Source of the DNA: Mameliella sp. MMSF_3455
Lineage (GTDB): Bacteria; Pseudomonadota; Alphaproteobacteria; Rhodobacterales; Rhodobacteraceae
Length of the DNA stretch: 48,182 nucleotides
Assembly: GCF_030733205.1 (NCBI RefSeq)
Contig: NZ_JASHJL010000039.1
Span: 1-48,182 of the forward strand
Reading direction: 5' to 3'
Shown: in pieces, positions 8,634 to 39,098 of the stretch
How the letters are laid out: each line of letters starts with the position of its first letter
Position numbering within the stretch: the first letter of the stretch is position 1
Position numbers and translations under genes: made by a program
The notes under the pieces: model-generated
Database searches by the model: none
Told to the model about the DNA's origin: nothing
What the model saw: the letters and a program-made list of their open reading frames with translations, nothing else

Positions 8634-9356
8634 ATGATGGCCTCGATTGAACAAAGCTTTGGCGACACGGCAAAAAGCGCCCCGACCTCGGCTGCGGGGA
8701 CGGTCTATGACGCGTTGCGCCGCAAGATCGTGTCGCTGGACTACCCGCCCGGCACCTCGCTCTCGCGGAACGCGCTTGCGCAGGAATACGGCGTCAGCCT
8801 GACCCCCGTGCGCGAGGCGATGCAGCGGCTGGAAGAGGACGGATTGCTGCGGATCATGCCTCAGTCGGGCACCGTGGTGAACCGGATCGACGTCGACCAA
8901 CTGTACGAAACACAATTCCTGCGCATTGCCGTCGAAACCGAGGTGGTGCGCCGCCTCGCCCTGGCCCCGCAGCCGACGATCCAGGGCCGCGCCCGCGCCA
9001 TCGTGCGGATGCAGGAGACCCTTGTCGGCGACACCGAACAGATGGGCATGTTCTACGAACTGGACCGTGCCTATCACCGGACGCTGTTCGCCGGCGTCGG
9101 CATGACCAACCTGCAGCAGATGCTGGTCCGGCGGATGGGCCACCTGCTGCGCTGCCAGAGGCTGGATCTCCCGTCCGAGGGAAAGATGGCCGACATCGTG
9201 GACCACCACAAACGCATCCTAACCGGGATCGAGACTGGCGATGCATTGGCGGCGACAGAGGCGATGCGCAGTCATCTTTCCGGCACGATCAGCCGCCTTG
9301 ACGTGCTACGTGCCCGTTTTCCCGACCATTTCTCGGAGCCGGCCCCCGACGGCTGA
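8634..9356 (+). CDS. GntR-family transcriptional regulator (FCD/FadR type)
   Basis: A 240-residue regulator. A winged helix-turn-helix occupies about residues 18-88 (VYDALRRKIVSLDYPPGTSL, then LAQEYGVSLTPVREAMQRLEEDGLL and QSGTVV), followed by a helical FCD ligand-binding domain with the metal-binding pattern (Asp in LDRAYHRTLF, His in HHKRILTGIE and HLS near the end). The ATG at 8634 has AGGGAG at proper spacing; a GTG 21 bases upstream is less likely. It is divergent from the sugar-acid operon and presumably represses it until a pathway intermediate binds. Ligand is unknown. Confidence 0.92.
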   Translation: MMASIEQSFGDTAKSAPTSAAGTVYDALRRKIVSLDYPPGTSLSRNALAQEYGVSLTPVREAMQRLEEDGLLRIMPQSGTVVNRIDVDQLYETQFLRIAVETEVVRRLALAPQPTIQGRARAIVRMQETLVGDTEQMGMFYELDRAYHRTLFAGVGMTNLQQMLVRRMGHLLRCQRLDLPSEGKMADIVDHHKRILTGIETGDALAATEAMRSHLSGTISRLDVLRARFPDHFSEPAPDG

Positions 9357-9439
9357 CGGCCTGTCCCACCGCGATTGCGCGGTCAGGGGAATGCGCCTAG
9401 GCTCGGCGGGAATGCGAAACCGCGCCGGAGGTCAGCGAC

Positions 9440-10480
9440 GTGCCAGAGATCGAGCCAAACCCGTTCCGGGGCAAGGGGATTTTGCAGGATTGGCCCCTGC
9501 CCGCCTCTGATCCGGCACCCGTCTCGGCTCTTCTGGCGCGTTGCCCGAAACATGCGCCCACGCCGCTGCATGATGCGCCAGAACTGGCCTCTGCCTGCGG
9601 TGTGGCCGTGTTGAACATCAAGGACGAGAGCGGGCGCATGGGTCTGGGCAGTTTCAAGGCGCTTGGCGCCGCCTACGCCATCGCACGAGACGCCTGCGAT
9701 GCGGGCGGCGACCCGCCCTCGGCCGCTGGCCGCACCTATGTCGCGGCCAGCGCGGGCAACCACGGTCTGTCGGTGGCCGCAGGGGCCGCCGTTTTTGGCG
9801 CCCGCGCGGTGATCTACCTGGCCGACTCCGTGCCAGAGGCCTTTGCCGACCGGCTACGTGCCAAGGGCGCCGAGGTCGTGCGCGCGGGCGCCACCTACGA
9901 GGACAGCATGGCCGCCGCCGAACAGGCCGCCGCCGACAAGGGATGGACCCTGCTGTCCGACAGTTCCTGGGAGGGCTACACCGATCCGCCGCTGGCGGTC
10001 ATGGAGGGCTACCTGCAACTGGCCGCCGAGGCCGTGGATCAGGTACCCGAACCGCCCACGCATATCCTGTTGCAGGCCGGCGTCGGCGGTATGGCCGCAG
10101 CCCTCGCCGCGCATTTTCGCGCCGCCTGGGGGGATACCCTGCAGATCGTCGTCGTGGAACCGGATGCCGCCCCTGCCTTGCGGGACAGCATCCGCGCAGG
10201 CCGCGCCGTGACCGCACCGGGGCCGGTATCCTGCATGGGGCGCCTCGACTGCAAGACGCCTTCGATGATCGCCTTGGCCGGGCTGTCGCGGGATGCGGAC
10301 AGATTTGCGACCATCGCCGAAGCCGAGGCGCAGGATGGTGTCGCCACGTTGGCCCGGGGCGGGCTGGCCACCACCCCCTCGGGCGGGGCGGGCCTGGCCG
10401 CGCTGATTGCCGGGCTGCCGGGGATCGGGACAGAGGCACGGGTGCTTGCGGTGCTCAGCGAAGGCCCCGAGGATGGCTGA
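9440..10480 (+). CDS. PLP-dependent lyase, diaminopropionate ammonia-lyase-like
   Basis: A 346-residue fold-type II PLP enzyme. The motif KDESGRMGLGSFKALGAAYA contains the Schiff-base Lys73 and closely matches 2,3-diaminopropionate ammonia-lyases; SAGNHG and the glycine-rich QAGVGGMAAA bind cofactor. These enzymes deaminate 2,3-diaminopropionate or serine/threonine-like substrates to 2-keto acids plus ammonia. It is shorter than typical diaminopropionate lyases (about 400 residues), so a related activity such as that of EutB-like dehydratases is possible. The start is GTG with GGAGG about 9 bases upstream. It overlaps the M24 gene by 8 bases and begins a three-gene unit. Confidence 0.82.
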   Translation: MPEIEPNPFRGKGILQDWPLPASDPAPVSALLARCPKHAPTPLHDAPELASACGVAVLNIKDESGRMGLGSFKALGAAYAIARDACDAGGDPPSAAGRTYVAASAGNHGLSVAAGAAVFGARAVIYLADSVPEAFADRLRAKGAEVVRAGATYEDSMAAAEQAAADKGWTLLSDSSWEGYTDPPLAVMEGYLQLAAEAVDQVPEPPTHILLQAGVGGMAAALAAHFRAAWGDTLQIVVVEPDAAPALRDSIRAGRAVTAPGPVSCMGRLDCKTPSMIALAGLSRDADRFATIAEAEAQDGVATLARGGLATTPSGGAGLAALIAGLPGIGTEARVLAVLSEGPEDG

Positions 10481-11639
10481 CGGGCGCCCCGGTTTCGGCG
10501 CGGGTGAATACCGCCGCCGCTGGACCGCGCTGCAGGCTCGCATGGCCGAGGCGGGCGAGGATGCGCTCTTGCTGACCGGCGCCGCGGATGTCTTCTACCT
10601 GACGGGCTTCCTGACCCGCTTCTGGGAAAGCCCGGCCCGTCCCTGGTTCATCGTGCTGCCCGCCAAGGGAGACCCCGTTGCGGTGATCCCGGAGATCGGC
10701 GCCCACCTGATGGGGCAGTGCCATCTGGGCGATATCCGCACCTGGCCCGCGCCTGACCCGGTGGACGACGGCATCGGCCTCTTGACCGACACGCTGGCCG
10801 CGCTGGTGCCGGAAAGGGGACGGATCGGACTGCCGATGGGATTGGAGACCAGCCTGCGGATGCCGCTGGCCGACTACCGCCGCCTGACCGCAGCGCTCGC
10901 CCCCCGCGCCTTTGCCGACGCAACGGACACGGTGCAGCGCGTCCGAGAGATCAAGTCCGAACTGGAAATCGCCGCCATCCGCGAGACCTGCACCCTCGCC
11001 GCGCGCGCCTTTGACGCCGTGCCCGCCCTCGTTGCCGCCGAGCGCAATCTTGACGCGATCTTTCGCGGCTTCCAGGGCGCCCTGCTGGAGGCCGGGGCCG
11101 ATTGGGTCAGCTACACCGCAGGCGGTGCCGGTCCGGGCGGCTATGGCGACGTGATCTCGCCACCCTTGTCCGTCCCGGTCCAACGCGGCGACGTTCTGAT
11201 GCTGGACACGGGCGCGGTGAAGAACGGGTATTTCTGCGACTTCGACCGGAATTTCAGCATCGGCCCCCCCGATGACGACACCCGCCGCACGCAAAACGCG
11301 CTGTACGAGGCGACAGAGGTTGCCCTGAACCGCCTGCGCCCCGGCATGACCGCACGGGATGCGCACCGGCTGCTGACCTGCGCCCTGTCCGAACGCGGCG
11401 CGACGCCCGGCGGCGGCAGGCTGGGGCACGGACTGGGCATCACGCTGACCGAATGGCCCTCTTTCACCGATCGGGACCGCACCCCCCTGCGCGAGAACAT
11501 GGTGCTGACGCTGGAACCCTCTGTCGAGATCGCGCCGGGTCGGATCCTTGTCCACGAAGAGGATATCGTGCTGCGCGCCGACGGGCCGGAACTGTTGACG
11601 GAACGCGCGCCTTTCGACCTGCCAGAGATCGGGATATGA
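10473..11639 (+). CDS. M24-family metallopeptidase/hydrolase (Xaa-Pro aminopeptidase-like)
   Basis: A 388-residue pita-bread hydrolase. An N-terminal creatinase-like domain (about residues 10-150) precedes the catalytic domain, in which all five expected metal ligands are visible: Asp245 (LDTGAV), Asp256 (CDFDR), a His in LGHGLG, a Glu in TLEPSV and a Glu in HEEDIV. Family members cleave Xaa-Pro peptides, but others hydrolyse creatine or ectoine. The ATG at 10473 lies inside the end of the lyase gene; a longer upstream frame is less plausible. Company with a PLP lyase and an Asp/Glu racemase-like protein suggests a catabolic amide or ring hydrolase rather than a general peptidase. Confidence 0.85.
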   Translation: MADGRPGFGAGEYRRRWTALQARMAEAGEDALLLTGAADVFYLTGFLTRFWESPARPWFIVLPAKGDPVAVIPEIGAHLMGQCHLGDIRTWPAPDPVDDGIGLLTDTLAALVPERGRIGLPMGLETSLRMPLADYRRLTAALAPRAFADATDTVQRVREIKSELEIAAIRETCTLAARAFDAVPALVAAERNLDAIFRGFQGALLEAGADWVSYTAGGAGPGGYGDVISPPLSVPVQRGDVLMLDTGAVKNGYFCDFDRNFSIGPPDDDTRRTQNALYEATEVALNRLRPGMTARDAHRLLTCALSERGATPGGGRLGHGLGITLTEWPSFTDRDRTPLRENMVLTLEPSVEIAPGRILVHEEDIVLRADGPELLTERAPFDLPEIGI

Positions 11640-12385
11640 CCGGCTTTCCCTTCGACCTCGACGCCCCCGAGACAATCCGCCTGGGCCTGATCGTCCTGCA
11701 TGTGGACGAGACCATCGAAAGTGACTTCCGCCGCATCTTTCCCGGTGCAAACGTCGCCCTCCATGTAACGCGCATTCCCTCGGGGGCCGAGGCAACGCCG
11801 GAAACACTGGGCCGGATGGAGGCGGACCTGCCGCGCGTGACCGCGCTCTTGCCGCCCGCGGCGCAGTTTGCCGCCGTAGGATATGGCTGCACCTCGGGCA
11901 CCACGATGATCGGCGCCGACCGCGTGACGGAACTGGTGAACGGTGCCTGCCGGACAGACGCCGTCTGCAATCCCTTGAGCGCCGCGCGCGACGCCTGCCG
12001 TCTCCTGGGCATCCATCGTCTGGGACTGGTATCGCCCTATCGCCCGGACGTGGCACAGCCCGTCTGCGATGCCCTGGCCGGCAGGGGGACAAATGTCACC
12101 CGCGCCGTGCATTTCGGCGAGGCGATCGAGGCCAACGTCGCACGTATCTCGGGAAACAGCGTCGTCGCCGCCGCGCGTCAGGTCGCCCGGCACGGGGACG
12201 TTGACGGAATATTCCTGTCCTGCACCAATCTGCGCACGCTGGACGTGATCGGACCGCTGGAACGGGAGTTGGGCCTGCCGGTCTTCGGCAGCAACCTCGC
12301 CCTTGCCTGGGCGATGGCACGGGCCGCCGGGTCGCATGTCCTCCCGACGCTGGATTGCCGGTTGATGCAGGCGGAACCGGCCTGA
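11636..12385 (+). CDS. Asp/Glu racemase-superfamily protein (maleate isomerase/EutA-like)
   Basis: A 249-residue protein with the two catalytic cysteines of the Asp/Glu racemase superfamily: Cys85 in GYGCTSGTT and Cys196 in LSCTNLRTLD. The sequence between and the GCTSGT motif fit the maleate isomerase, arylmalonate decarboxylase and EutA branch rather than true glutamate racemase. The ATG overlaps the M24 stop (ATGA), so the two are translationally coupled. Its likely role is isomerisation or racemisation of a small dicarboxylic or amino acid in the same pathway. Convergent with the COQ4-like gene, leaving only 3 bases between stops. Confidence 0.82.
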   Translation: MTGFPFDLDAPETIRLGLIVLHVDETIESDFRRIFPGANVALHVTRIPSGAEATPETLGRMEADLPRVTALLPPAAQFAAVGYGCTSGTTMIGADRVTELVNGACRTDAVCNPLSAARDACRLLGIHRLGLVSPYRPDVAQPVCDALAGRGTNVTRAVHFGEAIEANVARISGNSVVAAARQVARHGDVDGIFLSCTNLRTLDVIGPLERELGLPVFGSNLALAWAMARAAGSHVLPTLDCRLMQAEPA

Positions 12386-32309: not shown

Positions 32310-32811
32310 TCCGCCATCCCGCACGACGGCGTGATGCTTTTGCCGGGTTCCGGGCCGTTCCGGGGGTGGCAAGCGCGCCACGTCCGGACCGACCCCGCGC
32401 CCGGCACAAGGTTGCGCGGGGCGGCGCTGCAGGTTGGTGGAACGCGGCCCGCCGCGCCGCCAACCGAACGGATCGACTCATTGGCAAACCAAATGCAGGC
32501 CCATGCCAACAGCTGGCCTACCCCGGCACCGACCGACGCTCGTGCGGATCTACGTCAACCACTCCTACAGCCGCGAGGAACGCGATCGCGGCCTTACGCT
32601 AGCAGCCCCCGCTGACTTTGCGCGGCACTTGACCACTGCAACCGCCCACCCAGTTAGACAAGACAAGAGCTCTGCGCATCGGGTGACTGCGCAACTTGCG
32701 CCAATGGGCATAATCACCAGCCGAGCGCCGGTCGCGGCAGGATGCAAGATCCGTGGCGGGCAAGGTACCCTCCATCGGGCACATCCTCTGTTCGTCGCTA
32801 CAGGCAAAAGA
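32310..32811. other. 500-base stretch with no recognisable gene
   Basis: The open frames here start without ribosome sites and show no family features or signal sequences. Composition is less GC-rich towards 32640-32800 than the flanks. I see no tRNA, repeat or IS end. It may be an old gene remnant or regulatory DNA. Confidence 0.4.
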
Positions 32812-32837
32812 AAAAGGGGGCCTCGTGGCCCCCTTTT
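32812..32837 (-). terminator. Intrinsic terminator of the small secreted-protein gene
   Basis: On the minus strand an 11-bp stem (AAAAGGGGGCC with GGCCCCCTTTT) and 4-base loop are followed by a T-rich run (TTTTTCTTTT), a textbook Rho-independent terminator 15 bases after the stop codon at 32853. Confidence 0.9.
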
Positions 32838-32852
32838 GTCCGAACATCCAGA

Positions 32853-33113
32853 TCACCTTGTGGAAACGACTGGCGGACTGGACGTCATCGCGTCATGAAC
32901 GGCCCGCTGGAAGGTTGCTTTCTTCCGGTCGATCAACTCGATCCGGGTCTTCCGGTTGCTGGGCTTTTCATTCTGGATCTGGACGATTTCGGCCAGCGTG
33001 TAGACGCCGGGCGGCAGGCCCAGTTGTTTTGCCATCAAGTCGACGGTTTCATTTGCGAATGCCGGTCCGGAAATGGCGAACATCGTGGCGATCAAAGCAG
33101 CTTTCGTGAACAT
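32853..33113 (-). CDS. Small secreted protein, function unknown
   Basis: An 86-residue protein with a clean signal peptide (MFTKAALIATMFAISGPAFA, cleavage after residue 20) and a 66-residue mature part rich in Lys, Arg and Pro, with LGLPPGVYTLAEIVQIQNEK and no cysteine or membrane span. GGAGGAAG precedes the ATG; an upstream in-frame start lacks a site and would bury the signal peptide. It has its own terminator and lies behind the tandem-heptamer repeat, making it a likely target of the SARP-like regulator. LPPGVYTLAEIVQI is reminiscent of small Rhodobacteraceae exported proteins of unknown role. Confidence 0.78.
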   Translation of the reverse strand: MFTKAALIATMFAISGPAFANETVDLMAKQLGLPPGVYTLAEIVQIQNEKPSNRKTRIELIDRKKATFQRAVHDAMTSSPPVVSTR

Positions 33114-33196
33114 TGTACTTCCTCCAGGCTTTTTGAGTTGGGTGACACACAGGCTTCTGCGCGTATCTCCATTCAACCATGGAGGCAGGAACGGAC

Positions 33197-33236
33197 TGTC
33201 AAAGGGGTGTCAAACAGGTGTGAAAACAACGCGAAA
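33197..33236. promoter_or_regulatory. Tandem heptamers at 11-bp spacing, candidate SARP operator
   Basis: TGTCAAA (33197), TGTCAAA (33208), TGTGAAA (33219) and the degenerate CGCGAAA (33230) recur with exact 11-bp period, each separated by 4 bases. SARP-family activators bind direct heptamer repeats of one helical turn just upstream of promoters. On the minus strand each TTTGACA copy contains a perfect -35 element TTGACA for the small secreted-protein gene, 84 bases from its start. Confidence 0.7.
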
Positions 33237-33361
33237 CGAGCCGTGAAAGAGATGAAAATGCCGATTTGGTGCGTTCTCAAGGGCAATAAGCGCGTCTCAC
33301 CGGCCATTTGATCAAGACACCCGTTCTGAAACGTCAGTTGTCTCTGTGGGATGAACGGCCT

Positions 33362-33396
33362 TTGCCGGGCGATGGCCAAGGGACACCGCCCGGCAA
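33362..33396 (-). terminator. Hairpin after the protease gene
   Basis: A perfect 10-bp stem (TTGCCGGGCG with CGCCCGGCAA) with a 15-base loop starts 18 bases downstream of the protease stop on the minus strand. No T-run follows, so it may only partly stop transcription before the heptamer repeats. Confidence 0.55.
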
Positions 33397-33413
33397 TCGC
33401 GCCGTCAAAGGGT

Positions 33414-35168
33414 CTACAGTGAGAGCAGCGCCTTACCCGAGACGATTTGCATGCCGTATCCGGCGTCCTGCGCGCCTTTTTCCATATCCGGCGCAGGCAC
33501 CCGGGCTTTTTCAAGTTCTTCCCTAGCTTCTTTTCCGCTCAACAAACGCTCACCGGCATTACGCTGCTTTTGCTGCAGCAAGGCGAGCAAACCGGCGATC
33601 TGGCACGATGCGGCAGAGGTTCCGCCGAACACGGTGTAAAGCGACCGTGGCATGACCTCGGTGTGGTACGGGATCGGATCGTCCGGGTTGCGATCACCCG
33701 AAGTCCTGAGGACGGGGCGTTTGTCCGCCCCCTCTTCGGCAAAGTCGTCCTCTTCGCCCGCTTCGGCCGCATAACCATACTGACCGGGAATATCGATCGC
33801 AATCAGCCCGTAGGGCGAGTAAGGACCACGGTCGCCTGCCCCCTCCGGCACGCTCACGTCCATGTCCAGGTTGCGCCCGCGCCATGTGATGTCGTCGTAT
33901 CGGTGGTACCGGTCGGAAACTTCCTGTGCATCGTCCGATGGCGCATAGAACAAGGTGCCTCTCGCGTCATAGCCTGCGCTGTAGGATGCGTGGGCGCCCC
34001 GGGCATTGACGGCCCCCACCACGATCAGGTTTTCGGCGACCGGACCGCCACCATTCTTGCCCGTCAAGACAAGGTTGGCCGGGTAGTCCAGCGTGTCCGA
34101 CCCGCTGTTCCCTGCCGCCATCACGACCGGTATCTTTTCCGAAATGACGGACAGAAGTGTCTCGAACAGATGCTTTTCCGCGGAGCGCGCGCCACCGGCT
34201 AGCAGCCTCGTGCCTCTCAAGGACAGGTCCTCACGCAGTTCCTTCTCGCTCGGCGGGCGAGACTTTCCGCCGTCCTCTTCCGTCGCGGGCAGATCGGAAA
34301 CGCCGCGCGGGATCAGGATCACGTCCGCGTCGTGCCCCACCGCCCAGAGCAGCGCCATGATCAGGGGCCAGTATTCGGTATTGTAGACGGTGCTGATCGG
34401 AATGATATTCGCCGTCGGATGAATGCCCGCGTAGCCGATGGCATTCGGATTGCGATTGGCGGACCTGTCCGCGCCACTTTCGAGTGGCCGTGAGGATCCG
34501 TTCTGGCGATCACGACCTTCACCCTGGGCGGGCTCGGGTGCGGCGGAGGGCTTCGCATCGGTTTGTGTCGCGGCGCCATCGTCGATGCACTCCTTTTTTC
34601 CGTATCCCCCAGGGCTGGCCGCAACCAGGCCGGCGCAAGCGGTACCGTGGGCCGCGAACCTGTCAGAGGGATCAGGCAGTTCAAGGTATTTGTGCGTCTT
34701 CAGGCAATTTCCCAAGATGTCGTGAAGAACCGACCTCAACGGGTCGCCGACCGCATCGAACGCGTCTAGCAAGTCCTGGTCGCCGGCGATCCACTCCTGT
34801 ATACGAGGCCAGTCGTAGTCTCTCCCGGCATAGACCGCACCCTCGAGGAACCCGGTGAAATCCACCGGATGGATCAATCGCTCCGAGGCGAGATTCGGAT
34901 GCTCGAAGTGGTTGGCCCCCTTGGAAGCGGCGGCCGGGCCGCTTCCGGCACAGCCATTGTCGATAATCGCCACCGTCACGGCCTTGAACTGGCCATCTGG
35001 GTCGAAAATCTTTTTCCACTCTTCCTTTGGCTTGCCTTCGTAAGGCTCCGCGCAGTCCTCTGAATCCACAGCTTCCCAAGGTTCTACAAGAAATCCAAGC
35101 GCCTGAAGGTGCCAGAGGTAGAATAGACCTTCGCGGTCCTCGCAGGTCGTGCAATCACCATCGGCCAT
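33414..35168 (-). CDS. Subtilisin-like serine protease (S8 family), no signal peptide
   Basis: A 584-residue protease. The triad is complete in family contexts: Asp70 (VAIIDNG), His174 (AAHGTACAGLVA), oxyanion Asn354 (AAGNSG) and Ser518 (FGGTSAASCQIAGL). Between His and Asn is a polar insert (about 185-245, rich in Gln, Asp, Ala and Pro). The start ATG has GGAGGAG and no signal or pro-peptide is visible, so the enzyme is apparently cytoplasmic or exported with a partner. It starts 1 base after the PAP2-like stop, so both are co-translated. CTTC at residues 6-9 and other scattered cysteines are unusual for subtilases. Target is unknown; the upstream PAP2-like protein or the small secreted protein are candidates. 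Confidence 0.9.
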   Translation of the reverse strand: MADGDCTTCEDREGLFYLWHLQALGFLVEPWEAVDSEDCAEPYEGKPKEEWKKIFDPDGQFKAVTVAIIDNGCAGSGPAAASKGANHFEHPNLASERLIHPVDFTGFLEGAVYAGRDYDWPRIQEWIAGDQDLLDAFDAVGDPLRSVLHDILGNCLKTHKYLELPDPSDRFAAHGTACAGLVAASPGGYGKKECIDDGAATQTDAKPSAAPEPAQGEGRDRQNGSSRPLESGADRSANRNPNAIGYAGIHPTANIIPISTVYNTEYWPLIMALLWAVGHDADVILIPRGVSDLPATEEDGGKSRPPSEKELREDLSLRGTRLLAGGARSAEKHLFETLLSVISEKIPVVMAAGNSGSDTLDYPANLVLTGKNGGGPVAENLIVVGAVNARGAHASYSAGYDARGTLFYAPSDDAQEVSDRYHRYDDITWRGRNLDMDVSVPEGAGDRGPYSPYGLIAIDIPGQYGYAAEAGEEDDFAEEGADKRPVLRTSGDRNPDDPIPYHTEVMPRSLYTVFGGTSAASCQIAGLLALLQQKQRNAGERLLSGKEAREELEKARVPAPDMEKGAQDAGYGMQIVSGKALLSL

Positions 35169-35169
35169 G

Positions 35170-36225
35170 TCAACTCCTCCCCTCGTACCACTCGCGCTGA
35201 ACGGCCCGCATCTGGTAGCGGCAGGCATAGAACAGGTAGGGTGCGAACTTTCCCGCAAGCTCGACCCCGGCCTCGGTGTCGGACTTGTAGTGCAAGCCGG
35301 CGTATTCGCGGTTCTCGCCGATGCGCTGCGCGACGTGGAACAGTTCCTGCGTCGCGGTGTATTCGGGAATGGCCCGCGACAGCACCAGCGCCACGCAGGT
35401 ATCCTGGAACGCGTGGTTCGAAGGATAGGACGGGTGCGGCGGGATTCCGATGAACGGCCGCAGCGCATTGTCGACATGCGAAGGCCGGGGCCGTGTATAG
35501 CGGGTCTTGTAGACATAGCCGACCCGTTCGGACAGTTGCAGCACGGTGGAGATCAAAGCGCGCGTCGCCCGATAGCCCGCCAATTCCTCGATCCCGAGGC
35601 GCCGTAGCATGTCCGTCGGATTGTTTGCCGCGACCTGGCGGATGATCTCTTTCTGACGGAATTCATCCCCACGCAGACGGGTCTGTTTGCGGTGCAGTTC
35701 GCGCACTTCTTCGCGGGTTTCCTGCATGCCCGGCGGCGGCTGCAGCGGCAGACGCTCATACGCATAGACATTCTTGCTGAGTTTCTGTTTCGCTATGTTC
35801 GACACATAGGCGTTGTGGGCCTTTGCAAGACCGGCATCCTCGTTCTTTGCGGTATTGAGCGTGCCTTCAAACTCCGCAGCCGCCGTCGTTTCAATGGCGA
35901 TGTCTCTCAATTGCACGAGGTCCCGCAATTCGCGCCAAGTCGAGATGACCTGATCACCGAATGCCGGAACCGGATCGCCGTTCAACGCCGGAGAGCCAGT
36001 CGGCGCCGTGCCCGCGCCCTGCGTGCTGGCGCTGAAATGGGCGTGCGCGTGGGCATGCGCGTTGAAATGCGCATGGGCATGGGCGTGGGCATGGGCGCTT
36101 GGCCCCGGCGTCGTGGCCCGCGCAAGCGGTGCAACATCCCTTTGTTCTTTTCCGTCATGGCGGAAGAGCTTCCCTCTCCGCCCAAGCCGAAGGCTGGGCC
36201 CGTCTAGGCGATGTTCTTCCGACAT
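35170..36225 (-). CDS. PAP2/vanadium-haloperoxidase-like protein with His-Ala tract
   Basis: A 351-residue protein with all three PAP2 motifs: Lys240-x6-Arg247-Pro248 (KTRYTRPRP), PSNH (268-271, in place of PSGH) and Arg306-x5-His312-x3-Asp316 (NREYAGLHYKSD, Asn for the usual Ser). These bind phosphate or vanadate in acid phosphatases and haloperoxidases. There are no membrane spans and no signal peptide, so it resembles soluble enzymes of the family. Residues 44-64 carry nine His residues alternating with Ala. Residues 97-235 are mostly helical. The ATG at 36225 has GGAGGAACC upstream. It sits between the regulator (26 bases) and the protease (1 base). Activity, phosphatase or peroxidase, cannot be decided. 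Confidence 0.85.
   Translation of the reverse strand: MSEEHRLDGPSLRLGRRGKLFRHDGKEQRDVAPLARATTPGPSAHAHAHAHAHFNAHAHAHAHFSASTQGAGTAPTGSPALNGDPVPAFGDQVISTWRELRDLVQLRDIAIETTAAAEFEGTLNTAKNEDAGLAKAHNAYVSNIAKQKLSKNVYAYERLPLQPPPGMQETREEVRELHRKQTRLRGDEFRQKEIIRQVAANNPTDMLRRLGIEELAGYRATRALISTVLQLSERVGYVYKTRYTRPRPSHVDNALRPFIGIPPHPSYPSNHAFQDTCVALVLSRAIPEYTATQELFHVAQRIGENREYAGLHYKSDTEAGVELAGKFAPYLFYACRYQMRAVQREWYEGRS
36034..36096 (-). repeat. His-Ala coding repeat (two blocks of alternating His/Ala)
   Basis: The coding DNA repeats a 6-bp unit, giving AHAHAHAHAHF then NAHAHAHAHF. The two blocks differ in synonymous bases, so the repeat is not a fresh slippage product, though it may vary in length between strains. 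Confidence 0.85.
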
Positions 36226-36251
36226 TGGTGGTTCCTCCGGTTTTGGGGGGG

Positions 36252-37898
36252 TCAACTGGCGGCCTTCTCGGCAGTGCGCAGGCCGGAAATCAGGAAGCGG
36301 CGCACATGGTCCGCGGGAACTGGCGCAGCCGGATCCTCAAGCCTGCGCCATGTGAAACCCGGGTCCCGCTTCTCGATCCTTCGATAGGTCGCTGCCGCCG
36401 AGACCAAATCCCCGGATTGGGCATAGTTTGCGGCCAGGTAGCGCAGTGTCGGCAAAAAAGGCTGTGTCCCCGGGATCTGCTGGGACAAGGACCTCGTCCC
36501 ATATTGGATCGCCTTTTCGAAGCTGCCGGACAGGGAATGCGCCATTTGCCTGAGAGAGCCGAACAGATACTGGTAAGGGCTGTCGCGGCCGAAGCGAACT
36601 GCGCGCGCCGCTGCGACTTTCGCGGTGTCGTAGTCACCGGTGTAGCAGGCGAGCGTTCCTTTGGCGTAGTGATACAAGGCAAGGTCCGGAGGATCCGATT
36701 GAAGAGGCGCAATGAGGGCAGCGGCGCGTCCGAAGTCCCGGAAGACAAAGCTGTAGACATGCGAAAGCAGCGAGCGTGCCAGCGGATTGTGCGGATCAGC
36801 CTCGATCGCACGGGCGGCCCAGAAATCGGCCCGCGCCCGGATCTCGTTGAGGTCGAGCACTTTGGCCTCGAGAAGATGAGCCGAAGAATAGGCGCTCCAG
36901 GCGAAGTAAGACGCCTTTGGTTGCAGATCGCACGCTTTTTCAAGCGCATGGGTCGCTTCGGCAAGGGACCGCTCCGACCGCCGCATCAGGCGATCGACGC
37001 CTTCGATGAGGTTGCGTGCAGCCTCGCGCTCGGCGGTCATCCCGCCGAGCCCGGAATGAAGAAGCTTGTTGCAGATCTCGTCGACCAGTTGCGCCGTCAT
37101 CTCTGACAGGAGTTCGGTTGCCAGAGATGCCGTTTCGAGCTGGCGTTGTTTGCTCCAGATTACAAACTGGTTCTCCACCTTGAAAATCTTGAACGACAGG
37201 CTTGTCGCCGCACCAAGAGACAGGGCCTGGACCTTCAGGAACAGATCCGCAGGACGGGCCCCGGCGGCGGCGACATCACGGAAATCATGGATGTCGAAAA
37301 CTTCGTAGTACCTGAGGTTCGTCGCAATCTTGTCGATCACCAAGTTGGCAACCAGTTTCGCCGTATCATCGTTCACGGACGTTAATACCGGCAGGATACC
37401 CAGGCTCAGCCGTGGTCCGTTTTCGCAGTCGGTGCCGCTGGTATGGGATACCGTCGGCCTTGCATCGGATCCTTCCGAATTGACGCGCATTTCGGAGAGC
37501 CAGATATTGAATTGGGGATCCTTGATATCGATCCCTTCTAGGAATTCCCGTCGAGAGGCGGCATTTACGTCTGGATCGAAGTAGTCGATTTTCAGATGAT
37601 CCCGGGCCAGGAGGACCGGCCCGCCATCCGTGAGCAAGATCCGCTTTGCGTCTTGCCGGAACATGCGCCGCAATTGAGACAGGGCTTGTCTAAGGCTGTT
37701 GCGGGCTTGTTGTTCCCCCCTGTCACTCCAGAGCTTGTCTTGAAGCATGGCCCTGGAACAGGGTCGGTCACCATAAATTGCGAGGATTGCCAGCAGTCCC
37801 TTGGCCTTCTCTCCGCACGTGCCCGTCAAAATATCCCTGCCCTCTCTGTCGAGAACCTGGATCGGTCCGAAGAGCTTCAGTTCATATGTCGGTGCCAT
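36252..37898 (-). CDS. SARP/BTAD-like transcriptional regulator with TolB-like and TPR regions
   Basis: A 548-residue regulator. Residues 4-95 form an OmpR-like winged helix of the SARP type (ELKLFGPIQVLD, then KAKGLLAILAIYG, AMLQDKLWSDRGEQQARNSLRQALSQLRRMF). Residues about 165-260 look like the TolB-N-like segment found in related adenylate-cyclase/CadC-like proteins (LGILPVLTSVNDDTAKLVANLVIDKIATNLRYY). TPR-like helices fill the rest (ARADFWAARAIEADPHNPLARSLL, YHYAKGTLACYTGDYDTAKVAAARAVRFG). The ATG at 37898 is preferred because homology to the DNA-binding domain begins there; only a weak AGGCG site precedes it. It leads a transcript with PAP2-like and protease genes, and two heptamers stand about 90 bases upstream, which suggests autoregulation. 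Confidence 0.82.
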   Translation of the reverse strand: MAPTYELKLFGPIQVLDREGRDILTGTCGEKAKGLLAILAIYGDRPCSRAMLQDKLWSDRGEQQARNSLRQALSQLRRMFRQDAKRILLTDGGPVLLARDHLKIDYFDPDVNAASRREFLEGIDIKDPQFNIWLSEMRVNSEGSDARPTVSHTSGTDCENGPRLSLGILPVLTSVNDDTAKLVANLVIDKIATNLRYYEVFDIHDFRDVAAAGARPADLFLKVQALSLGAATSLSFKIFKVENQFVIWSKQRQLETASLATELLSEMTAQLVDEICNKLLHSGLGGMTAEREAARNLIEGVDRLMRRSERSLAEATHALEKACDLQPKASYFAWSAYSSAHLLEAKVLDLNEIRARADFWAARAIEADPHNPLARSLLSHVYSFVFRDFGRAAALIAPLQSDPPDLALYHYAKGTLACYTGDYDTAKVAAARAVRFGRDSPYQYLFGSLRQMAHSLSGSFEKAIQYGTRSLSQQIPGTQPFLPTLRYLAANYAQSGDLVSAAATYRRIEKRDPGFTWRRLEDPAAPVPADHVRRFLISGLRTAEKAAS

Positions 37899-38128: not shown

Positions 38129-38138
38129 GCCGCCAAAT

Positions 38139-38224
38139 CCGTTGGGGTGCCCTGCAACAGGGCTGAGAGGCATCGCGCCGACCCATCGAACCTGATCCGG
38201 GCAATGCCGGCGTAGGGAACGGAG
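38139..38224 (+). promoter_or_regulatory. TPP (thi-box) riboswitch
   Basis: The conserved elements appear in order: GGGGTGCCC (38144-), GGGCTGAGA (38160-), ACCC then GAACCTGATCCGGG (38188-) and GCCGGCGTAGGGAAC (38206-). These form the pyrimidine and pyrophosphate sensing helices of the TPP aptamer. Thiamine pyrophosphate binding is expected to lower expression of the ten downstream genes. Confidence 0.97.
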
Positions 38225-38233
38225 ATCGCGCAC

Positions 38234-38257
38234 GCAGGCAAACCGCCTGCCCGTTTT
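38234..38257 (+). terminator. Riboswitch expression-platform hairpin
   Basis: GCAGGC-N5-GCCTGC followed by CCGTTTT lies between aptamer and thiD and resembles a short intrinsic terminator. The thiD site GCGGAGGAG is 25 bases further, so control could be at termination or by sequestering the site. Confidence 0.55.
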
Positions 38258-38294: not shown

Positions 38295-39098
38295 ATGGAA
38301 AAGGTCGCGAAACTCCTGATCATTGCAGGCTCCGACAGCGGTGGAGGCGCTGGCATTCAGGCCGATCTCAAGGCCGCCTCGGCGCTTGGCGTCTACGGTG
38401 CCACGGCGATCACGGCCGTCACCGCACAGAACACGGTGGGCGTTCAATCCGTCGCGACGCTGGCCCAAGAGATGGTGGCGGCGCAGATCCGCTCGGTGCT
38501 CGACGACATTGACATCGACGCGGTGAAGATCGGGATGCTGGGCGCGGTCGAGATCATCGAGGCGGTGGCGCAGGCCTTGCAGGGCTTCGCCGGTCCGGTG
38601 GTCCTGGACCCGGTGATGGTTGCGAAGTCCGGGGATGCTCTGCTGGACGCGTCGGCGGTCACGGCGTTGCGCGATCACCTGCTGCCCCGCGCAACGATGC
38701 TGACCCCGAACTTGCCCGAGGCCGCCCGGCTTCTGGAACACGATCCCGCAACCACGTCTGAAAGGATGGAAGCGCAAGGCGCGGCGCTGCGAGCGCTCGG
38801 GCCGGACGCGGTGCTCATGAAAGGCGGCCACGCCGAAGGTGAAACCTGCCGCGACCTGCTGGTGACAGAGGCTGGTTTCACTGCTTTCGAGGCGCCGCGC
38901 CTGACCACGCGCAACACCCATGGCACGGGCTGCTCCCTGTCCTCGGCCATCGCGGCCGAAATGGCCAAGGGCGCTGCACCGGAGGCCGCTGTCCGCCGCG
39001 CGCATGGCTGGCTGCACGGGGCCATCGCCGCGGCGGACCGGCTGGAGGTCGGACGCGGTCACGGGCCAGTGCACCATTTCCACGAGGTCTGGGCATGA
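38295..39098 (+). CDS. thiD: Hydroxymethylpyrimidine (phosphate) kinase
   Basis: A 267-residue ribokinase-fold kinase that phosphorylates HMP and HMP-P to HMP-PP. It begins LLIIAGSDSGGGAGIQADLKA, the classic ThiD start, has VLDPVMVAKSGD in the middle and ends with TRNTHGTGCSLSSAIAAEMAKG, where the GTGC anion hole and catalytic Cys lie. GGAGGAG precedes the ATG. First gene of the riboswitch-controlled operon, overlapping thiO by 4 bases. Confidence 0.97.
   Translation: MEKVAKLLIIAGSDSGGGAGIQADLKAASALGVYGATAITAVTAQNTVGVQSVATLAQEMVAAQIRSVLDDIDIDAVKIGMLGAVEIIEAVAQALQGFAGPVVLDPVMVAKSGDALLDASAVTALRDHLLPRATMLTPNLPEAARLLEHDPATTSERMEAQGAALRALGPDAVLMKGGHAEGETCRDLLVTEAGFTAFEAPRLTTRNTHGTGCSLSSAIAAEMAKGAAPEAAVRRAHGWLHGAIAAADRLEVGRGHGPVHHFHEVWA

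Follow-up and report, generated by a model that had tools for sequence, protein, structure and literature searches.

Four neighbouring genes on the - strand of Mameliella sp. MMSF_3455 (contig NZ_JASHJL010000039.1, positions 1 to 48,182, called the window below) encode a putative regulator, an enzyme of the PAP2 superfamily with a peptide repeat in its N-terminal part (the repeat tail), an S8 subtilase and a small protein (Table 1). Comparison with related loci indicates that the window locus is almost certainly one instance of a three-slot module, composed of a sensor-regulator, a repeat-tailed PAP2-superfamily enzyme and a protease of exchangeable class.

The locus and its conserved core

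The initial annotation of the locus proved accurate as a description: the places and strand of the four genes were reproduced, and the gaps of 26 and 1 base between the first three genes are correct. The sequence GGAGG can be read in front of the PAP2, S8 and small genes, and a scan for promoter-like sites found none on the module strand. The hairpin predicted before the small gene is present with its 13 pairs, and the 241-base stretch scored for it folds at z -2.36, with 3 of 200 shuffles folding equally well. The terminator expected after the small gene was also found (32837-32812, 11 pairs followed by a T-rich stretch); since the scan returned 5 terminator-like sites against 5.5 in shuffles, only the quality of this site is notable. 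The absence of signal peptides from the first three proteins and the presence of one in the small protein hold on sequence reading, not by a predictor. Among the window proteins, Pfam placed S8 above its cut-off (E 9e-15), PAP2 (1e-5) and Trans_reg_C (2e-5) each just under it, with a weak TPR match in the regulator (TPR_2, 7e-5) and no match for the small secreted protein.

Table 1. Features of the module locus, all on the - strand; coordinates refer to the whole 48,182-nucleotide window.
Feature	Position	Strand	Description
Regulator	36252..37898	-	548 aa; SARP-like winged helix-turn-helix at residues ~31-87, middle region, C-terminal TPRs; kept beside PAP2
PAP2 / acid phosphatase / vanadium haloperoxidase-superfamily enzyme	35170..36225	-	351 aa; N-terminal peptide repeats
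Repeat tail of the PAP2 protein	36034..36096	-	AHAHAHAHAHFNAHAHAHAHF, residues 44-64, Ala-His units; codons mixed
S8 subtilase	33414..35168	-	584 aa; without recognisable signal peptide (sequence reading)
Hairpin between the S8 and small genes	33354..33406	-	strong, 13 pairs; no T-run after it
Small protein with signal-like start	32853..33113	-	86 aa; occasional accessory gene of modules
Rho-independent terminator-like hairpin after the small gene	32812..32837	-	11 pairs, then T-rich

Two peptide patterns of this PAP2 subfamily, run against GTDB contigs, led to 147 confirmed relatives. The best 80 of them are the named loci, which also served to build the regulator and protease profiles. Regulator, PAP2 and protease were all present in 78 of the 80, the two incomplete loci (L074 and L112) being cut by contig ends, and the triad lay on one strand in 77 of the 78, with the regulator on the opposite strand in L069. 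The named loci belong to the Rhodobacterales, to the Hyphomicrobiales (Rhizobium, Neorhizobium, Phyllobacterium, Mesorhizobium, Devosia, Microvirga and Aminobacter) and to Pelagibius. PAP2 relatives, with or without a tail, were found at E <= 1e-3 in 66 of 198 genomes of the family, the window's own included. The order regulator, PAP2, S8 was seen in eight of the nine best family loci outside the window's genome. The remaining one (L036, 1017-1957), near a contig start, holds a PAP2 copy decayed into two frames with an AM repeat remnant, and neither regulator nor S8 was found there. The gene order is therefore conserved in distant strains, the check that the initial annotation had itself proposed. 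Modules were also detected in genomes of the same phylum outside the Alphaproteobacteria (L215, unit SGGA; L222, unit GGA), and the window's genome contains a second module (L034, contig C18), in which regulator and PAP2 are divergent and S8 is convergent with PAP2. A further universal neighbour was dropped as a candidate after the flanks of 99 loci had been clustered, which gave no general partner beyond regulator, PAP2 and protease. Three loci that were sampled twice (L065, L067 and L081, identical to L038, L037 and L039) do not enter the counts for codons, trees and neighbours.

In a diverse set of 73 chosen regulators, 64 contain a winged helix-turn-helix (wHTH) and 9 a class III cyclase domain instead, with Pfam Guanylate_cyc found in 8 of the 73. 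The cyclase type occurs in all five loci with an eqolisin protease, in all three of the third S8 group (both described below) and in L039, where a class III cyclase-TPR protein (9258-11234) directly precedes PAP2 and S8; the L188 regulator combines a wHTH with a weak match to the cyclase query (2.6e-7). The label "SARP-like" given to the window regulator is fair in that its Rhizobium leguminosarum counterpart is annotated "SARP family transcriptional regulator", but the window protein has no BTAD match. SARP and HilA-type wHTH-TPR regulators share with the module regulators the N-terminal wHTH of the 64 and the TPR matches seen in many; in contrast to SARP, where an OmpR-type wHTH is followed by BTAD, BTAD was found in only 7 of the 73 and the cyclase replaces the wHTH in 9.

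The repeat tail and its proteases

Eight PAP2 residues (K240, R247, P248, S269, H271, R306, H312 and D316) are invariant in an alignment of 47 sequences. The superfamily is defined by the motifs KX6RP, (P)SXH and RX5HX3D, all of which the window protein contains, and Pfam PAP2 lies above its cut-off in L207 and L050. These signature residues are those of class A non-specific acid phosphatases and vanadium haloperoxidases. Against the PDB, the family profile scores higher with acid phosphatases (7f17, 5e-28) than with bromoperoxidase (1qi9, 4e-12), and the residues would be compatible with a vanadium haloperoxidase. The module enzyme differs from other members of the superfamily by its repeat tail and its tie to a regulator and a protease and, on sequence reading, the window protein lacks the hydrophobic start that serves class A acid phosphatases as export signal.

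A perfect N-terminal dipeptide array of at least 4 units was present in 79 of the 80 PAP2 proteins of the named loci, built from NR, NK, SR, SK, AR, AK, GR, TK, AN, AQ or AM; oddities are a degenerate NK array in L102, the tripeptide NRG in L043 and the AH of the window. In a wider circle of relatives that lie beside regulators, the units are tri- and tetrapeptides, among them NSQ, GGF, NSY, TGN, DAR, GGMN, HGGT and DGAV. Units are shared among related genera, NK by most Hyphomicrobiales loci and NR by many roseobacters. The exact (AH)4 DNA pattern occurs nowhere else in the window's genome, and a partner protein sharing the repeat was therefore rejected. Except in the first S8 group, the distance from the nearest upstream ATG to the tail is short (group medians of 1-8 residues).

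To relate the tail to the other two genes, we used 79 distinct PAP2 places drawn from the 88 loci retrieved for the top hits of three genome searches. Repeat and regulator (within 1.5 kb) coincided at 52 places, 4 had the repeat only, 23 neither and none the regulator only (Fisher 3.6e-16); a protease, searched with four profiles, lay within 1.5 kb at 50 of 56 places with repeats and at 0 of 23 without. One of these 23 is the decayed copy with its short AM remnant (L005/L036). Of the tail-only places, L013 is found where its contig begins, a regulator stands ~3 kb from L022 and from L027 (wider loci L198 and L192), and L026 is on a 9-kb contig with the protease gene cut (L205). Many tail-less PAP2 proteins begin with signal-like sequences on sequence reading; L048 has a signal-like start and no tail. 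Regulator and protease follow the tail, not PAP2 as such. In all, 43 different units were counted, which are rich in G (29%) and N (13%) and lack Ile, Cys, Trp and Pro; Trp and Pro do occur in units seen outside these 43 (GGNWF, TGPG).

Adjacent tail copies are nearly identical as peptides and dissimilar as DNA. Only 31 of 2372 residue pairs differ between adjacent copies and synonymous sites are saturated (proportion of synonymous differences, pS, 0.98). The arrays were found by peptide identity, so that peptide constancy is partly built in; the permissive definition used for the count of 31/2372 lessens this effect, and the codon permutation, in which codons were shuffled within each array (L036, L048 and L050 dropped), is independent of it. 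Adjacent copies used the same codon in 818 of 2294 cases (123 arrays) against 950 +/- 20 in the permutation, with 0 of 1000 as low, and with one array per distinct unit (43 arrays) in 282 of 933 against 361 +/- 13 (0 of 2000). The longest exact DNA period match has a median of 8 bases, compared with a median array length of 57. A near-exact peptide with codons less alike than chance implies that the protein repeat is kept copy by copy while repetition of the DNA is avoided. A quick tree requires at least 44 changes of unit, a figure close to the number of units, and at least 6 of unit length; near relatives in one supported clade differ by one letter in every copy (NSF, GSF and GGF in L185, L183 and L188).

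Short DNA repeats are generally prone to slippage, and this tendency would favour an ordinary phosphatase/protease operon whose enzyme merely carries a neutral, expanding linker. Both codon tests reject a neutral repeat driven by slippage, adjacent units sharing codons less than at random, and a clear tail is absent from all 23 PAP2 places without regulator and protease. This explanation, already disfavoured, is very improbable.

The protease slot is occupied by five groups of enzymes. In the tree set, 85 loci belong to a first S8 group and 22 to a second (roughly 570-810 aa), which includes the second module of the window's genome; the others have a papain-like C1 protease (6 loci), a Peptidase_A4/eqolisin (5) or a third, divergently placed S8 group (3). 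The eqolisin assignment agrees with the family profile in all three scanned of the five (3e-23, 1e-27 and 9e-21). Papain (peptidase C1) motifs comprise the catalytic Cys, His and Asn, the latter in NSWG; the motifs could be read in 6 of 6 papain-like third genes, as NSWG in five and NSHG in L047, and the Pfam C1 matches of the two scanned (0.0016 and 0.0025) lie under the cut-off. On a careful tree of 70 PAP2 domains, each of the five protease groups forms one clade (support 100/99, 100/99, 89/88, 98/83 and 100/99); this tree omits L050, L051, L182, L112, four near-duplicate NSQ rows and many S8 rows. The quick tree, which has 120 rows and retains the odd ones but omits five loci lacking the search motif (L096, L107, L109, L113 and L119), needs 8 changes for 7 protease labels, where 6 is the minimum possible, and 2 changes each for the first two S8 groups. 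Since each protease group corresponds to one PAP2 clade, enzyme and protease travel together. In L050 they are fused in one reading frame of 946 aa with a Tat-like start (sequence reading), and in the stretch covered no protease was found in L051, L182 and L112, the last being cut by a contig end.

In the S8 proteins, D70, H174, N354 and S518 are invariant (alignment of 45 sequences), giving the Asp-His-Ser triad and the oxyanion Asn. The best PDB match of the S8 profile is a major intracellular serine protease (7xr8, 3e-21), and the module S8 shares with intracellular subtilisins the triad, the oxyanion Asn and the lack of a visible signal peptide; it differs from them in the invariant N-terminal W19 and L21 (LWHL motif) and in having a repeat-tailed PAP2 as partner. 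Pro287 is nearly invariant and Arg288 invariant (window 34305-34310), at the position of the substrate-binding Ser-Leu-Gly-Gly of subtilisins, and this change might alter specificity.

Neighbours and genomic setting

A vanadium bromoperoxidase-like profile matched 13 of 126 loci, 7 strongly and 6 distantly. One of the strong matches, the L059 protein, was checked against the PDB (7e-116). The six distant matches are the NSQ loci of the window's genus and, as a search of the window's genome with the L059 protein gave nothing at 1e-20, these genes may not be bromoperoxidases. In addition, a haem "animal" peroxidase profile matched 7 of the 126 loci, namely the three from which it was built, L195 (1e-135) and three weakly (1e-18 to 1e-22). 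Of the 198 genomes searched, which appear to be the same in the PAP2 and bromoperoxidase surveys, nine have a bromoperoxidase, which lies within ~3.5 kb of the module PAP2 gene in four and elsewhere in five. The four adjoining modules are full (L267-L269) or consist of a regulator and the fused PAP2-S8 (L050). A PAP2 relative is present in 8 of the 9 bromoperoxidase genomes and in 58 of the 189 others (p 7e-4). Beside one module (L065, 5-5740) lies a protein with trypsin, DNA/RNA endonuclease and S8 domains, with an animal-type haem peroxidase adjoining. Beside the second module of the window's genome lies an RTX protein with a Hint domain (L034, 3612-7397), and large relatives of it occupy the corresponding position in the five further genus genomes.

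The small protein is not part of a fixed four-gene module as had been proposed: relatives of it occur, besides the window, in only 4 of 131 loci, at full length in L056 and L204 and weakly in L062 and L063, flanking the module. A search of 248 family genomes gave 10 others with matches at 1e-6, all of whose alignments stop at or before position 62 of the 90-position model; the 13 places in these 10 genomes all lack a module gene within 1.5 kb. The full-length protein (3 sequences) was nevertheless seen only beside modules in the data searched, so that the gene is an accessory rather than a stray. The proposed processing of its product before export found no support.

On plasmid pRle248e of R. 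leguminosarum 248 (L207), the triad (GYN07_RS27640, 27635 and 27630), annotated SARP, PAP2 and S8, is followed at 9604-11990 by a gene with an aKG-HExxH peptide beta-hydroxylase domain (6.7e-16) and a ThiF-like gene annotated "thiamine phosphate synthase". This stretch is a possible locus for a ribosomally synthesized and post-translationally modified peptide (RiPP), for which the tail could be the core peptide, and the S8 of L207 weakly matches the PatA/PatG model (7e-5, far under the cut-off). A conserved same-strand gene at matching distance is confined to 16 of the 99 clustered loci (its identity was checked in L207 only), and tails other than those of the first S8 group are preceded by too few residues to leave much space for a leader. 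Among the four window proteins themselves no modifying enzyme was found; in L207 such genes stand beside the triad. A RiPP-like system is the least probable of the explanations considered.

Base 32317 of the window marks the end of collinearity with two of the three genus relatives compared (about 91% and 88% identity); the third has only ~1.9 kb in common with the window before this point. The module and the thiamine genes lie beyond it, and the GC content of the module is on average lower than that of its flanks. A TPP riboswitch (38133-38235, + strand; Rfam, 76.6 bits) adjoins the module and is followed at 38295 by a gene that reads as thiD-like, whose matches in the genus relatives are only 57-63% identical. 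An NSQ-type module is present in all six genomes covered for the genus, the dipeptide type only in that of the window. PAP2 matches were also found on 82 plasmid records, 67 of them of Rhizobium. Insertion mediated by a tRNA was rejected, as the window contains none. We further rejected a phage or prophage origin, the subtilase having no match in the phage collection and the PAP2 profile none in viral contigs, and a known defence system, as PADLOC recognised 0 of the 4 window proteins.

The exchange of parts, the patchy distribution, the lower-GC segment not found in the two collinear relatives, the plasmid records and the peroxidase neighbours would all suit a role in antagonism or self-destruction, in which the regulator would unleash the protease together with a haloperoxidase or phosphatase on the cell, on phages or on competitors. 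The PADLOC result and the lack of matches in phage and viral sequences speak against such a role, as does the flank clustering of the 99 loci, in which no immunity-like gene appeared as a general partner, and we regard it as decidedly unlikely.

Possible function of the tail

The explanation that we favour, with a probability of roughly 37%, is that the co-encoded protease acts on the repeat tail of its partner enzyme. Two observations lead us to it: a protease, whatever its class, almost always accompanies the tail, and every copy of the repeat is preserved almost unchanged. Several observations weigh against it. L051 and L182 have a tail and no protease near, a transposase-like gene following in L182. 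Papain, eqolisin and subtilase share no specificity that would explain a similar tail design. At the subtilase position that we equate with residue 166 of the S1 pocket, the basic NR/NK tails pair with Ile in 21 of 22 cases (one Leu) and the neutral AQ/AM tails with Glu in 4 of 4, the reverse of a simple charge match. A match of charge between tail and S1 pocket was therefore rejected, as position 166 does not track the tail, and its failure leaves the specificity of the protease for the tail unexplained.

The mechanism that we tentatively build on the favoured explanation, and consider slightly less probable than the explanation itself, is as follows. The regulator would sense a stress or a ligand through its TPR region and turn the operon on, and enzyme and protease would be made together. 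The repeat tail would then be a strand recognised by the co-encoded protease, as a many-site substrate or a pseudo-substrate, and its occupancy or trimming would gate the enzyme, the protease or both. Such a tail would be strictly repeated because one active site reads every copy, and its letters would change as the protease changes its specificity. As output, the enzyme could transfer phosphoryl groups or oxidise halides; the repeated presence of vanadium bromoperoxidase and haem peroxidase genes nearby speaks for oxidation or halogenation as the theme.

Alternatively, the tail could be a low-complexity segment for self-association, forming condensates or fibres, in which like binds like, whichever residues are used, and gathers enzyme and protease. 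Units such as GGF, GSF, NSY, NSQ, QG, SR and GR resemble assembly-prone sequences, the richness in G and N fits this likeness, and so does the fact that, except in the first S8 group, the tail begins the protein or nearly so. Segments of this kind, however, usually tolerate imperfect copies, and the near-constant company of a protease would be left unexplained. We consider self-association possible but unlikely.

A multi-copy unit, an adjoining protease and a TPR-bearing regulator are also the parts expected of a peptide signal, and the tail could be a polyprotein of oligopeptides, from which the protease would free identical di-, tri- or tetrapeptides, or small multiples of them, to be read by the regulator. 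Yeast alpha-factor with Kex2 and the RRNPP regulators follow a comparable logic. The period of the tail is moreover kept better than its letters: on the quick tree the minimum number of changes is 6 for the period and 44 for the unit. On the other hand, words of 2-4 residues are very short, related genera often share one unit, no exporter or importer was a general partner in the clustering of the 99 loci, and it would remain unexplained why the carrier is an enzyme with an intact active site. This makes a lineage-specific circuit of peptide signalling quite unlikely. About as unlikely is a peptide-word system of Proteobacteria, in which the tail would store 3-17 identical copies of a di- to pentapeptide particular to the lineage, a protease of any class would release or read them, and the TPR regulator, DNA-binding or cyclase, would respond; jointly with this, the words would evolve in concert across copies while the DNA is kept non-repetitive, that is, concerted evolution without DNA homogenisation. 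The likeness to RRNPP pheromone systems and to alpha-factor/Kex2 concerns the shared logic of repeated unit, protease and TPR reader and implies no homology; in the module, by contrast, the unit is embedded in an enzyme and no exporter was found. Among the matches listed for the regulators (25 of 30 families) there is no Xre-type HTH, the hallmark of RRNPP receptors, and a Trans_reg_C or cyclase domain is present instead.

The claim that no described system has this combination stands so far as no paper was found by title or abstract start, in a partial coverage of the literature. The families of the parts are all known and, as far as we can tell, the three-slot design with a repeat-tailed enzyme is undescribed. 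The initial annotation thus holds as an observation and in part as an interpretation; it did not include the repeat tail, the swapping of protease classes and regulator output domains or the second module (L034). The defining feature has been overlooked by annotation in general, the R. leguminosarum gene being named only "phosphatase PAP2 family protein", in a three-gene system that is widespread in Alphaproteobacteria, legume symbionts included, with members in other classes of the phylum. It poses an evolutionary puzzle, in that 6-12 peptide copies change in step, yet adjacent codons are less alike than chance. Moreover, the five protease groups supply enzyme-protease pairs that can be tested directly, including pairs from tractable Rhizobium strains.

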